Both the position numbers and the translations under genes were made by a program. Under the pieces are notes generated by a model. The model was not told the DNA's origin and searched no databases. It saw only the letters and a program-made list of their open reading frames with translations. This document shows, in pieces, positions 15,854 through 25,630 of a stretch of 64,000 nt of DNA (its first letter is position 1; each line of letters opens with the position of its first letter). Source of the stretch: Subtercola frigoramans (GTDB lineage: Bacteria > Actinomycetota > Actinomycetes > Actinomycetales > Microbacteriaceae); assembly GCF_016907385.1 (NCBI RefSeq), contig NZ_JAFBBU010000001.1:372001-436000 (forward strand), in the 5' to 3' direction.

Positions 15854-15869
15854 TACCCCTATGGGTATG
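15854..15869. promoter_or_regulatory. CsoR/CstR-type operator (site a)
   Basis: ATACCCCTATGGGTAT, with flanking ATC/GAT extending the symmetry. It lies in the divergent gap between a rhodanese and an MFS gene. The same ATACCC-N4-GGGTAT pattern recurs at 17264, 19166 and 25615. It matches the known operator type of CsoR/CstR proteins. Confidence 0.85.
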
Positions 15870-15914
15870 ATTTCCTGAGAAGGGTTTACCGATCCGAATC
15901 TGAGGGAGTAACCC

Positions 15915-15974
15915 GTGAGTACACGTGGGATGCCAGGGCAGTCCGCGCGACAGTCTCCGATCGGAGCATCGTGA
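15915..15974 (+). CDS. possible 19-residue leader peptide overlapping the MFS start
   Basis: GTG 15915 follows GAGGGAG at good spacing, and the frame ends at TGA 15972-15974, overlapping the GTG start of the MFS gene. The peptide is STRGMPGQSARQSPIGAS after the initiator. It may serve translational coupling; there is no family resemblance. Alternatively it is an upstream part of the MFS leader with no role. Confidence 0.25.
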   Translation: MSTRGMPGQSARQSPIGAS

Positions 15975-17254
15975 CCGGCACCGATTCCGTGGCAGCGTCC
16001 ACCGTCGGGTCTCCCGCCGTAGTGGCGAGCCAGCGACGCATCGTTCGAGCATTGATCGCCGGGCAGATCTTCGGTGGCGTTGGCATGGGTGCCACGCTGT
16101 CGCTCGGTGCCCTGCTTGCTGCCCAGCTCGGGGGTTCGACGGCATGGTCGGGCATGGCGGCGACGATGAGCACGCTCGGCGCGGCCGCCGTTGCCGTTCC
16201 TCTCGCGCGTCTGGCTGCGGCTCGGGGCCGACGACTCTCGCTTTCCAGTGGTTCGATGCTCGCTGCGGTCGGCGCGATTCTTGCGATCACCTCGGCCCAG
16301 ATCCAGTCGTTCCCCCTGCTGCTGGTCTCGCTCATGCTGCTGGGCGCGGGGTCGGCGACGAACCTCCAGGCGCGTTTCGCGGCCACCGACCTCTCCCAGC
16401 CGCGATCGCGCGCGCGTGACCTTTCGATCGTTGTCTGGTCGACGACAATCGGTGCCGTGCTCGGGCCGAACCTGTTTGGCCCAGGCGAGGTCGTCGGCGC
16501 CTTACTGGGTTTGCCGCCACTGACGGGAGCCTTTGCGTTCTCGCTTCTCGCCCAGCTGTGCGCTGCTGTCGTCTACGCGTTCGTCTTGCGACCAGACCCG
16601 CTGCTGACGTCATATGCACTGCTCGGAACACGGCCTCTCGCGGGTTCACGTACTGGCGGATGGGCGATCCTGCGCGCCAACCCACGCGCACGATATGCGG
16701 TGGCGACGATCGCGTTCAGCCAGGCCACGATGGTGGCGTTGATGTCCATGGCCCCGGTGCATCTCCGGGAGAACGGCGCGATGCTCACCATTGTCGGATT
16801 CTCCATCAGCCTGCATGTCGCGGGAATGTACGCTTTCTCCCCGGTCTTCGGGCGGCTTTCTGATCGGTGGGGCCGGATGCCCGTCATCCTCATCGGTCAG
16901 GGCCTGCTGCTGGCCTCCCTGCTCGTCTCCTCGCTCGGCGGAGCATCACAGTCCTCGATGATGATCGCCCTCGTCCTGCTCGGGCTCGGATGGTCGGCTT
17001 CGGTGATCGCCGGATCGGCGCTCGTTTCAGACGCGGTCACGGCAGAACAACGAACGCCACTGCAGGGCTTCTCCGACCTGTCGATGAACGCTGCGGGTGC
17101 CCTCGGTGGTGCGGTGGCGGGCCCGATCATGATGGCCGCGGGATACTCGGGGCTGGCGTGGGTCGCCATGGTGCTCGTCGCAGCGGTCGGCGCCTGGTCG
17201 ATCACCCGGATGCTCGGCTCGCGCCCGGTCGCACGCCAGGTCGCAGCGAAGTAG
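15971..17254 (+). CDS. MFS transporter
   Basis: 427 residues from GTG 15971, with GGAG 5 bp upstream. Twelve hydrophobic segments in two halves; the second-half loop carries GRLSDRWGRMPV, the MFS loop 8-9 motif. An Arg-rich loop ARGRRLSLSSG occupies the loop 2-3 position. The substrate is unknown. Its promoter contains operator site a, and it stands between two rhodanese genes, so export or import of a sulfur species (sulfite, thiosulfate or similar) is a reasonable inference but is not shown by sequence. Confidence 0.85.
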   Translation: MTGTDSVAASTVGSPAVVASQRRIVRALIAGQIFGGVGMGATLSLGALLAAQLGGSTAWSGMAATMSTLGAAAVAVPLARLAAARGRRLSLSSGSMLAAVGAILAITSAQIQSFPLLLVSLMLLGAGSATNLQARFAATDLSQPRSRARDLSIVVWSTTIGAVLGPNLFGPGEVVGALLGLPPLTGAFAFSLLAQLCAAVVYAFVLRPDPLLTSYALLGTRPLAGSRTGGWAILRANPRARYAVATIAFSQATMVALMSMAPVHLRENGAMLTIVGFSISLHVAGMYAFSPVFGRLSDRWGRMPVILIGQGLLLASLLVSSLGGASQSSMMIALVLLGLGWSASVIAGSALVSDAVTAEQRTPLQGFSDLSMNAAGALGGAVAGPIMMAAGYSGLAWVAMVLVAAVGAWSITRMLGSRPVARQVAAK

Positions 17255-17263
17255 GCTTCTTGC

Positions 17264-17279
17264 ATACCCTAGGGGGTAT
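17264..17279. promoter_or_regulatory. CsoR/CstR-type operator (site b)
   Basis: ATACCCTAGGGGGTAT, 65 bp upstream of the second rhodanese ATG, with C/G flanks extending the symmetry. Confidence 0.85.
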
Positions 17280-17344
17280 GTGTATTGTCGGAGGTGTTCA
17301 CACAACGCCTGACGGCGAGTCACCTCGAGACGGATGGATCGACC

Positions 17345-23528: not shown

Positions 23529-23570
23529 GAGCCTCACTCCACGTGCGCCCCGCAGCGTGGAGTGAGGCTC
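23529..23570. terminator. bidirectional terminator hairpin
   Basis: GAGCCTCACTCCACG (23529-23543) and its exact complement (23556-23570) form a perfect 15-bp stem with a 12-nt loop, between the convergent ice-binding and CsoR-family genes. There is no long T-run. Confidence 0.75.
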
Positions 23571-23611
23571 GAACTCGCCGCCCTGGTGAGTCGTCAGGGC
23601 GTCGCGACTGG

Positions 23612-23869
23612 CTACGCCAGCGACATGAAGAGCTTTTCGAGTTTTGCCTTGTCGAGAGCGGGATCCTCCTGCTCGAGGCAGGTCTGCAGGGCGCTGGCGA
23701 TGATGGCGAAGCCGGCACGGTCGAGTGCGCTCGAGACCGCGGCCAGCTGGGTGACGACGACGGTGCAGTCGTTGCCCTCTTCGATCAAACGGGTCACTGC
23801 TGCCAATTGGCCCTGCGCGCGTCGGAGGCGATTGAGTACCGGCTTCATCTCTGTGGGGTCGAGTTCCAT
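23612..23869 (-). CDS. cstR: CsoR/CstR-family (DUF156) repressor, CstR-like
   Basis: 85 residues from ATG 23869. All-helical DUF156 repressor: [20 protein letters not shown] is the helix 1/2 region with the RxxQGQ motif and C35. The second Cys is C64 (LQTC), 28 residues between the two, as in Staphylococcus aureus CstR. Copper-sensing CsoR proteins have a His four residues before the second Cys; here that position is Ala60, so a Cys/His/Cys copper site is missing. This favours reaction with persulfides (di- to tetrasulfide cross-links) as the signal. It is downstream of the CoA-disulfide reductase-rhodanese gene in the same direction, 52 bp apart, and so probably autoregulated through site d. 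Confidence 0.85.
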
Positions 23870-23921
23870 GAGATTCCCTTCGATTGGAATATGACCAGAA
23901 TATACGGGTGCGGGTATCGTT

Positions 23922-25586
23922 CTACCCCTGAAGAGCAGGCCCGGCGACACTCGCGATGCCGGCTCGCCAGGTGAGGTACCCACCGTCGAGGTTTCTCGCA
24001 TCGAAGCCGTGCTGGACGAGCATCCGGGCAGCCGTGTGGCCACGCTGGCCGACCTGGCAGTGCACGATCAGCGAGGTGAGGGGGAGTTCGTCGAGTCGCT
24101 CCCGGAGTTCGTCGATCGGCAGGTTGAGGGCGCCGGGGATGTGGCCGGCACTGAATTCGGCCGAGGTTCTGACGTCGATGAGAACAGTACCCGCCTCCCT
24201 GGCCTGCTCGAGTTCGTGCCACTGGATGTTTCGGCCGAGACCCGAGTGCAGGTTGTCTGCGACGTACCCGATCTGGTTGATGGGGTCTTTGGCTGACCCG
24301 TACTGCGGTGCATAGGCGAGTTCGAGGTCTTTCAGGCCGGAGGCGGTGATGCCGGCAGTCATCGCGACCGCTATGACGTCGATTCGTTTGTCGACTCCCT
24401 GCCCCCCGACGATCTGGGCGCCGAGGATGCGGTCGGTGTCGGGGTCGACGAGCAGCTTCATCGCCATCTGTTCGGCTCCCGGGTAGTAGCTGGCATGCGA
24501 GGCCGGATGCGTGTGGATCACCCGGTGCGACCGGTTCGCGGCGACCAGACGGCTCTCGCTCCAGCCCGTCAGCGCGACGGTCAGATCGAAGACGCCGACG
24601 ATCGCTGTGCCGAGTGCTGGGGCGGCCGGGTGCGGTGTCCCAGCGATACTGTCGGCGGCGGCTCTTCCGTGCCGGTTCGCCAGCCCCGCCATGGTGACTA
24701 GTGTGTCGCCGCCGTCGAGCGAATCCACTTTCAGGACGCCATCGCCGACGGCGTAGACGTCGGGGTCGTTCGTGCGCTGGAACTCATCGACGACGATTCC
24801 GCCGCTCTCGCCGAGTGCGAGCCCTGCAGCTGCTGCGAGCTCCGATTGAGGGTGCACGCCACTCGCGTCGATCACCAGATCTGCTCTGACGAGAGAGCCG
24901 TCGCTCAGGAGCAGTCCTTCTGCTGTGGCTGATGCGACGGTGGTGTTCAGCCGCACGTCGATCCCGTGGGCGACCAGTTCTCGAAGCACGGGTGACGCCA
25001 TCTCAGGGTCGAGCGGGGAGAATACCTGCGGGCCGCGCTGCACGAGCGTCACCTGGACGCCACGGCGTCGCAGATTCTCGACAGCCTCGAGACCGATGAA
25101 GCCAGCGCCGATGACGATCGCCGATGCGGGGGCTGTCGCCGTTGTGCCCACTGCGTCGATCGTCGCCGTGATGTGGTCGATGTCGTCGATGGTTCGCAGG
25201 CTGAACGTCGGCGCGCCGGCCGCGCCTTCGAGGTCTCCCGCAGCTGCGCCGGTGGCGAGAATCAGTCTGTCGTAGGGCTCGTCGAACGTCGTGCCCGACG
25301 ACAGGTCTGTCACCCGCACGGTGCGGTTCACGCGGTCGATGGCCGACACGTCGTGCCTGATACGCACGTCGAGCCGAAACCGTGCCGCGAGACCGTCGGG
25401 AGTCTGGAGCAGGAGACTGCTTCGCTCGGTGATCACTCCGCCCACGAAGTACGGCAGCCCGCAGTTCGCGAACGACACGTATCCACCCCGCTCGAATACG
25501 ACGATCGTCGCCTCTTCGTCGAGTCTGCGCAGACGTGTCGCCGCAGACATGCCGCCAGCGACGCCGCCGATGATCACCGTTTTCAT
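23922..25586 (-). CDS. CoA-disulfide/persulfide reductase fused to rhodanese
   Basis: 554 residues from ATG 25586. Residues 1 to about 440 are a FAD/NAD(P)-linked reductase: dinucleotide fold [17 protein letters not shown] (5-21), single active-site Cys in [13 protein letters not shown] (C42), second fold [20 protein letters not shown] site VYAVGDG. Residues of about 455-554 are a rhodanese domain ([11 protein letters not shown], active loop C510-QVGQRG). This is the CoADR-RHD architecture known as NADH-dependent CoA-persulfide or polysulfide reductase. It reduces CoA persulfides and releases sulfide. The promoter contains operator site d, and the CstR-like repressor follows it. Confidence 0.93.
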
Positions 25587-25614
25587 GGCACAACCTTCTC
25601 TCCGTCCATCCAGT

Positions 25615-25630
25615 ATACCCCCTAGGGTAT
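25615..25630. promoter_or_regulatory. CsoR/CstR-type operator (site d)
   Basis: ATACCCCCTAGGGTAT, 28 bp upstream of the CoADR-rhodanese start codon; on the minus strand it reads as sites b and c do, with the ends exchanged. It probably covers the promoter of the reductase-repressor operon. Confidence 0.87.

Follow-up and report, generated by a model that had tools for sequence, protein, structure and literature searches.

A probable persulfide stress regulon with a CstR-type repressor and four shared operators in Subtercola frigoramans

INTRODUCTION

Which stress governs a 10-kb gene block of Subtercola frigoramans in which four palindromes of the form ATACCC-N4-GGGTAT (hereafter N4 sites) lie beside genes for rhodaneses, a putative coenzyme A (CoA)-persulfide reductase, a multicopper oxidase and a 38-residue Cys-rich mini-protein? 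The block is part of a stretch of 64,000 nucleotides (assembly GCF_016907385.1, contig NZ_JAFBBU010000001.1, positions 372,001 to 436,000; hereafter the window, whose numbering is used for the block) and encodes its own repressor of the CsoR family. Two kinds of known system come into question: the cst persulfide regulon under CstR, known from Staphylococcus, Enterococcus and Streptococcus, and copper regulons such as the mycobacterial RicR regulon. Here we report site counts, repressor types, operator spacing, conservation and gene families obtained by computation. On this evidence we regard the block as most probably a persulfide (reactive sulfane sulfur) stress regulon under its own CstR-type repressor, with a rough probability of 0.88.

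RESULTS AND DISCUSSION

N4 sites are confined to the block

A pattern scan of the window found the palindrome without mismatch at four positions (Table 1). In the whole genome (3.68 Mb) these were the only exact copies, compared with 0.14 expected from base composition, and the exact reversed control pattern was absent. When up to two mismatches were allowed, the window contained seven sites against an expectation of 0.53, a number reached in none of 100 shuffles. A chance origin of the four exact sites was rejected by the shuffles, the expected 0.14 copies and the restriction of the sites to the block. One mismatch added a single genomic copy, at 866659, and the reversed control likewise gave one; because the 866659 copy lies within a coding frame, we set it aside as a chance match. 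The original prediction, which was made from the letters of the window, had placed four operators on the promoter side of the genes: all four are exact and so placed, and the first starts at 15853 rather than at 15854. The gene order that it described was borne out by open reading frame (ORF) calls and by Pfam and NCBIfam scans, and the possibility that it had named as fatal, a pattern frequent in the genome away from promoters, is contradicted, for the exact pattern, by the genome-wide count. A scan of the block for sigma-70-type promoters returned no matches, compared with 1.1 in shuffled sequences.

The repressor lacks the copper-binding histidine

The repressor of the window carries Cys35, Ala60 and Cys64, and in the alignment Ala60 occupies the position of the copper-binding His of CsoR. 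It thus has the two Cys and the non-His residue of the CstR type and departs from the Cys-His-Cys ligand set of copper CsoR and RicR. Its nearest solved chains, 7mq1 to 7mq3, have Asn or Ala at this position, and we take them to be CstR proteins. The same genome contains three CsoR-family genes; the one beside a copper ATPase (1175809) encodes Cys-His-Cys, and the third (940386-940622) encodes Cys-His-His. The copper His was absent in all 30 CstR-type loci of the family, in 30 of 30 sequences from 29 class-level loci and in all 42 CsoR-family proteins without interruption from 80 named loci that carry relatives of the mini-protein, and it was present in all 30 copper-type family loci examined. 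The set of 42 leaves aside one interrupted copy, in a Rhodococcus record (L119), where tblastn places a CstR-type repressor with an in-frame stop at about 4400-4700.

The repressor could in principle sense a signal other than persulfide, such as formaldehyde, electrophiles or general thiol oxidation, and two-Cys members of the CsoR family may respond to disulfide stress. Indeed, the best NCBIfam match of the window repressor is FrmR. However, this match scores 42.8 bits, below the cut-off of 133, for which reason an FrmR identity was rejected, and the genes under the N4 sites include those for rhodanese, CoA-persulfide reductase, metallo-beta-lactamase (MBL) fold proteins and thioredoxin. We therefore consider such a signal very unlikely.

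One spacer base separates persulfide-type from copper-type operators

We counted exact TACCC-N4-GGGTA and TACCC-N5-GGGTA sites in the best-scoring loci returned for each repressor type (30 family CstR-type loci including that of the window, 30 family copper CsoR loci including the copper operon of the same genome, and 29 class-level loci of each type, three of the copper ones belonging to the same family). At the family level, CstR-type loci contained 22 N4 and no N5 sites, whereas copper CsoR loci contained no N4 and 31 N5 sites; at the class level, the corresponding counts were 35 and 0, and 0 and 13. Combined, 59 CstR-type loci thus held 57 N4 and no N5 sites, compared with none and 44 in 59 copper CsoR loci. 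Exact sites occurred in 16/30 and 26/29 CstR-type loci and in 28/30 and 13/29 copper loci (family and class, respectively), and no exact copies with a spacer of 2, 3, 6 or 7 were found in any of the four locus sets.

The N4 sites also follow the repressor from genome to genome. Among 199 same-family genomes, an N4 site accompanied a CstR-type repressor (profile match with E no higher than 1e-20) in 88, the repressor occurred without a site in 8, a site without the repressor in 2, and 101 had neither. The same comparison with copper CsoR in 120 genomes (taken as G000-G119) gave counts of 33, 40, 15 and 32, and no association (P = 0.18). Because the genomes are related, P-values for co-occurrence, here and below, overstate independence. 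In the block itself (14001-27000 of the window), TACCC-N5-GGGTA with at most one mismatch was not found; elsewhere in the genome, the copper operon has two exact N5 sites, and a third stands before a second copper-type ATPase frame (identified by eye). A fourth exact N5 site (163743-163757) stands just before what resembles, also by eye, a tRNA and an integrase-like frame.

These counts suggest that a single spacer base tells the operators of the persulfide paralogue from those of the copper paralogue, which would offer a simple rule for distinguishing the two kinds of regulon in genomes. Should it also apply in vitro, the rule would account for the lack of cross-talk between repressors that are paralogous and near-identical. 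Annotation gives little help here: of 40 listed plasmid rows for CstR-type repressors, 37 carry only the name 'metal-sensitive transcriptional regulator', which is silent on the stress sensed.

Many genes beside N4 sites encode sulfur-transfer enzymes

In the window, the 25615 site precedes a fusion of Pyr_redox_2, dimerisation and rhodanese domains with an SFxxCG motif, that is, the composition of a reductase-rhodanese. Its nearest solved chain is 8a56, 'Coenzyme A-persulfide reductase' (505 bits), which it resembles, as judged from the sequence alone, in domain order over 540 residues and in an identical SFANCGLPY motif. By the strict NCBIfam definition of CoA-disulfide reductase (CoADR), TIGR03385, it falls short, at 413.5 bits compared with a cut-off of 578.8. 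The repressor gene is co-directional with this gene across a gap of 52 bp; the repressor is therefore probably under the control of the 25615 site as well.

We then considered the 80 named loci together with the window, which held 111 sites, with 205 distinct frames on the operator side, 51 of them encoding the Cys-rich peptide. These frames were chosen mechanically (the peptide if present, otherwise the longest of those that begin no more than about 300 bp away). The domain scan covered 110 other frames, namely 109 of 143 with at least 85 residues plus the rhodanese RhdB of the window; near-duplicate loci, overlapping frames and the remaining window frames were omitted. It identified 27 frames with a rhodanese domain (one being RhdB), 16 with Pyr_redox_2 (12 of them CoADR-like), 7 with the MBL fold, 6 CsoR-family proteins, 5 thioredoxins, 3 major facilitator superfamily (MFS) transporters, 2 DUF302 proteins and 1 DsrE protein. 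In Arthrobacter and Paenarthrobacter, annotated islands on plasmids likewise carry rhodaneses, TauE/SafE and MBL hydrolase alongside CstR-type repressors, and in one case also thioredoxin and DsrE; they contain three and two N4 sites, respectively, and no N5 site. The Cys-rich peptide is present in the Arthrobacter island and absent from that of Paenarthrobacter. This gene content would be expected for persulfide and sulfide detoxification.

We thus favor persulfide over copper because the repressor lacks the copper His, N4 sites track the CstR type and N4 sites flank sulfur-transfer genes, and on these three grounds the persulfide-type regulon of the original prediction is supported. The operators stand beside sulfur-transfer genes and are tied to the presence of the repressor, as site and gene counts show, from which we infer binding.

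The SHOCT-multicopper oxidase unit and the case for copper

The oxidase unit gives reason to think of copper. If the oxidase and the Cys-rich peptide, the latter as a metallothionein-like protein, were governed by a CsoR- or RicR-like copper sensor, the block would be a copper regulon; in line with this, one N4 site is followed by the multicopper oxidase and a SHOCT protein, the copper operon of the genome likewise has a protein that looks SHOCT-like by eye ahead of its copper ATPase, and some relatives of the oxidase carry a copper-type site. With a threshold of E 1e-60, 20 of the 199 family genomes contained the multicopper oxidase (at most seven candidates scored per genome). Among 23 oxidase loci, including that of the window and a second oxidase of the same genome, the region 200-1000 bp upstream of the oxidase start contained an N4-type site in 12, an N5-type site in 3 and neither in 8 (0-1 mismatch). 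Three Cryobacterium loci have N4 with one mismatch, and the Paeniglutamicibacter locus has none. However, the copper His is missing from the window repressor, only N5 sites occur in the 59 copper CsoR loci, the presence of copper CsoR does not predict N4 sites, and many other genes flanking N4 sites encode sulfur enzymes. Copper CsoR as the regulator of the four sites was rejected on the basis of the Cys-Ala-Cys signature, the co-occurrence of N4 sites with the CstR-type repressor and the spacing counts, and a copper regulon as a whole seems to us most improbable.

Because N4 and N5 sites are so similar, control could also be mixed, with CstR acting on the sulfur genes and the oxidase unit answering to both copper CsoR and CstR. 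The alternation of site types among the 23 loci fits this arrangement; the 19166 site before the oxidase unit, however, is identical over all 16 bp to the 17264 site before RhdB, and no N4 site occurs in the 59 copper CsoR loci. Dual control is accordingly an unlikely alternative to control by CstR. With no site in 8 loci and N5 in 3, membership of the oxidase unit is lineage-specific: it is real, though not universal, and seems to have moved between sulfur and copper regulons. We can only guess at the role of the oxidase, which might be protection against Cu(I)-sulfide chemistry. The second multicopper oxidase of the genome (875457-876923) is 67% identical and has neither a SHOCT match nor an upstream operator.

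A Cys-rich mini-protein recurs at N4 loci

Neither Pfam nor NCBIfam gave a family match for the mini-protein at E 0.01, and a profile search against PDB gave a best E of 0.067; hence, it fell into no described metallothionein or zinc-finger family. Relatives were found in 91 of 199 family genomes and 48 of 396 phylum genomes, at no fewer than 588 places in the genome collection (a lower bound), and in 77 plasmid records. It is thus a recurrent, largely unannotated part of N4 loci: among 30 plasmid rows listed, 27 had no annotated feature under the match, two a hypothetical protein, and one record was unannotated (PLSDB itself describes its gene table as incomplete). In the 80 named loci, 107 N4 sites were counted and 67 loci had at least one; a site lay within about 100 bp before the mini-protein ATG in 41 (median 40 bp), compared with 1.1% of the 26,360 ATGs there, and a ribosome-binding-like stretch was present in 70. 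Among family genomes, 78 had the peptide and an exact N4 site, 12 the site only, 13 the peptide only and 96 neither (P = 3e-28). A CstR-type repressor was present in 85 of the 91 peptide-bearing genomes, and 76 of 130 peptide copies lay at most 3 kb from one.

All 16 sequences compared agree at eleven positions (M1, C2, C7, C10, K12, W15, G17, C18, G19, H21 and C35). An AlphaFold model shows a beta-beta-alpha fold (predicted local distance difference test, pLDDT, 81.5; predicted template modelling score, pTM, 0.44), in which C7/C10 and C18/H21 are so placed that they may form a single metal site, with Cys left over. In size, Cys/His content and modelled fold the mini-protein resembles small zinc-finger domains (5yvx CW, 2mrf UBZ and 2nb9 ZitP), but it has no family match, and a Foldseek search with the model returned no significant structural match (best E 1.8). 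Longer forms mostly have 52-60 residues and an amphipathic-looking tail. In a metagenome-assembled genome of Myxococcaceae, an apparent membrane helix is appended to the peptide, and on a Rhodococcus fascians plasmid an MMPL gene adjoins it.

In many actinobacteria, the persulfide response may repeatedly include a tiny Cys-rich protein that usually goes unannotated. We tentatively propose, as a possibility that we rate somewhat below even, that the mini-protein and its longer forms constitute a new family of carriers for sulfur or soft metal, induced by persulfide and at the core of this response, in regulons split by one spacer base, so that a target such as the oxidase can switch master by a one-base change. 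If the peptide does carry sulfane sulfur or soft metal, it would be a new protein in sulfide tolerance.

Observations that weigh against a persulfide regulon

Several observations do not fit this reading readily. No sulfur dioxygenase, sulfide:quinone oxidoreductase (SQR) or TauE was found among the ten block proteins scanned. Many of the 110 scanned frames are not sulfur-related (amidase, NUDIX, kinase and others) or have no match; owing to the mechanical choice of frames, a good part of them arise by chance or are antisense. No exact site was found in 14/30 family and 3/29 class CstR-type loci, nor an exact N4 site in 13 of the 91 peptide-bearing family genomes. Among 29 loci from across the phylum, 27 copies of the peptide were recognised, and only 5 of these have an exact N4 site within 150 bp. 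The oxidase loci with N5 (3/23) or without a site (8/23) belong here as well. Finally, four of the 80 named loci contain six N5 sites in all; all four have a copper-ATPase-like match, as do 15 of the 80 overall.

Proposed mechanism and relation to known systems

In the model that we infer, which extends to binding, inducer, export substrate and the roles of peptide and oxidase, the CstR-type repressor would bind the four N4 palindromes and silence five transcription units. Cellular persulfide would then link Cys35 and Cys64 of adjacent subunits by a sulfur bridge and release the DNA, the mechanism of CstR proteins. This would induce the rhodaneses, the CoA-persulfide reductase-rhodanese, the putative exporter, the CxxC membrane protein, the mini-protein and the SHOCT-multicopper oxidase pair, as well as the repressor, because its gene follows that of the reductase behind the 25615 site. 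The mini-protein would most likely hold a metal at C7/C10/C18/H21, with C2, C35 and C37 taking sulfane sulfur or soft metal. The paralogous copper CsoR would use N5 palindromes, whose one additional spacer base would keep the regulons apart, and relatives could shift the oxidase unit between regulons by a spacer change.

The block shares with cst systems a two-Cys CsoR-family repressor without the copper His, palindromic GC-tract operators and CoADR-rhodanese and rhodanese targets. It differs from them in having several operators dispersed over 10 kb, in counting the mini-protein, the CxxC membrane protein and the SHOCT-multicopper oxidase unit among its targets, and in the lack of SQR or dioxygenase among the proteins scanned. 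With the RicR and CsoR regulons it shares the repressor family and a multicopper oxidase and Cys-rich peptide as targets, but its repressor is Cys-Ala-Cys and its sites are N4, whereas the copper CsoR of the same genome is Cys-His-Cys with N5 sites in its operon. The statement that the set is not a described system stands only in part: the core is of the known cst/CstR kind, and the peptide, the membrane protein and the oxidase unit are unusual.

Other features of the block

Table 1. Coordinates of genes and operator sites in the block (window numbering)
Feature	Position	Strand	Basis
Single-domain rhodanese RhdA	15463..15831	-	Pfam Rhodanese 3.5e-18; ORF call
N4 operator ATACCCCTATGGGTAT	15853..15868	.	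Exact match; between divergent rhodanese and MFS genes
MFS transporter MFS1	15971..17254	+	Pfam MFS_1 3.6e-25
N4 operator ATACCCTAGGGGGTAT	17264..17279	.	Exact match; precedes rhodanese-membrane protein-peptide unit
Single-domain rhodanese RhdB	17345..17686	+	Pfam Rhodanese 4.7e-16
165-aa membrane protein, C-terminal CxxC	17729..18226	+	No Pfam/NCBIfam match at E 0.01
38-residue Cys-rich mini-protein	18285..18401	+	No Pfam/NCBIfam match at E 0.01
Decayed second MFS gene	18454..19108	+	tblastn with open relative; pieces in three frames, internal parts missing
N4 operator ATACCCTAGGGGGTAT	19166..19181	.	Exact match; precedes SHOCT-multicopper oxidase unit; relatives also have upstream sites
SHOCT-domain membrane protein	19323..19595	+	Pfam SHOCT 2e-06, 27.8 bits (cut-off 27)
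Multicopper oxidase	19595..21061	+	Pfam Cu-oxidase_2/3; twin-arginine-like N terminus (by eye)
CstR-type repressor, 85 aa	23612..23869	-	Pfam Trns_repr_metal 4.6e-21; C35-A60-C64
Degenerate operator-like site ATACGGGTGCGGGTAT	23902..23917	.	2 mismatches; upstream of repressor gene
CoA-disulfide/CoA-persulfide reductase-rhodanese fusion	23922..25586	-	Pfam, NCBIfam, nearest solved chain
N4 operator ATACCCCCTAGGGTAT	25615..25630	.	Exact match; 28 bp upstream of CoADR-rhodanese start

The degenerate site at 23902 may be a chance match. RhdA probably starts at ATG 15801 and has the active-site loop CQSGHRS (both by eye). Copies of MFS1, 65-67% identical, occur in three N4-bearing Arthrobacter loci. 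The unit of rhodanese, membrane protein and peptide spans 17345-18401(+). Its membrane protein has seven relatives, in Cryobacterium and Arthrobacter loci, with invariant C79, C153 and C156, several of them in the vicinity of N4 sites and of genes for rhodanese or MFS1; in Cryobacterium, a related protein with a GCPVCNK motif precedes it. The structure model shows four helices at low confidence (pLDDT 62). The decayed MFS gene lies behind the peptide gene, and its open relatives are found in two Cryobacterium loci (L083 and L084). The nearest solved structures to the multicopper oxidase are the laccases 6wcn and 2xu9. Between the oxidase and the repressor, and without an operator, lies a gene (21188-23506, +) for a protein with an ice-binding domain, Ig-like/Ca_tandemer repeats and a long Pro-Thr stretch. 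Just upstream of the block are ORFs for an MMPL-type transporter (11311-13536, +) and a cytochrome b561-like protein (13539-14096, +), both named by eye.

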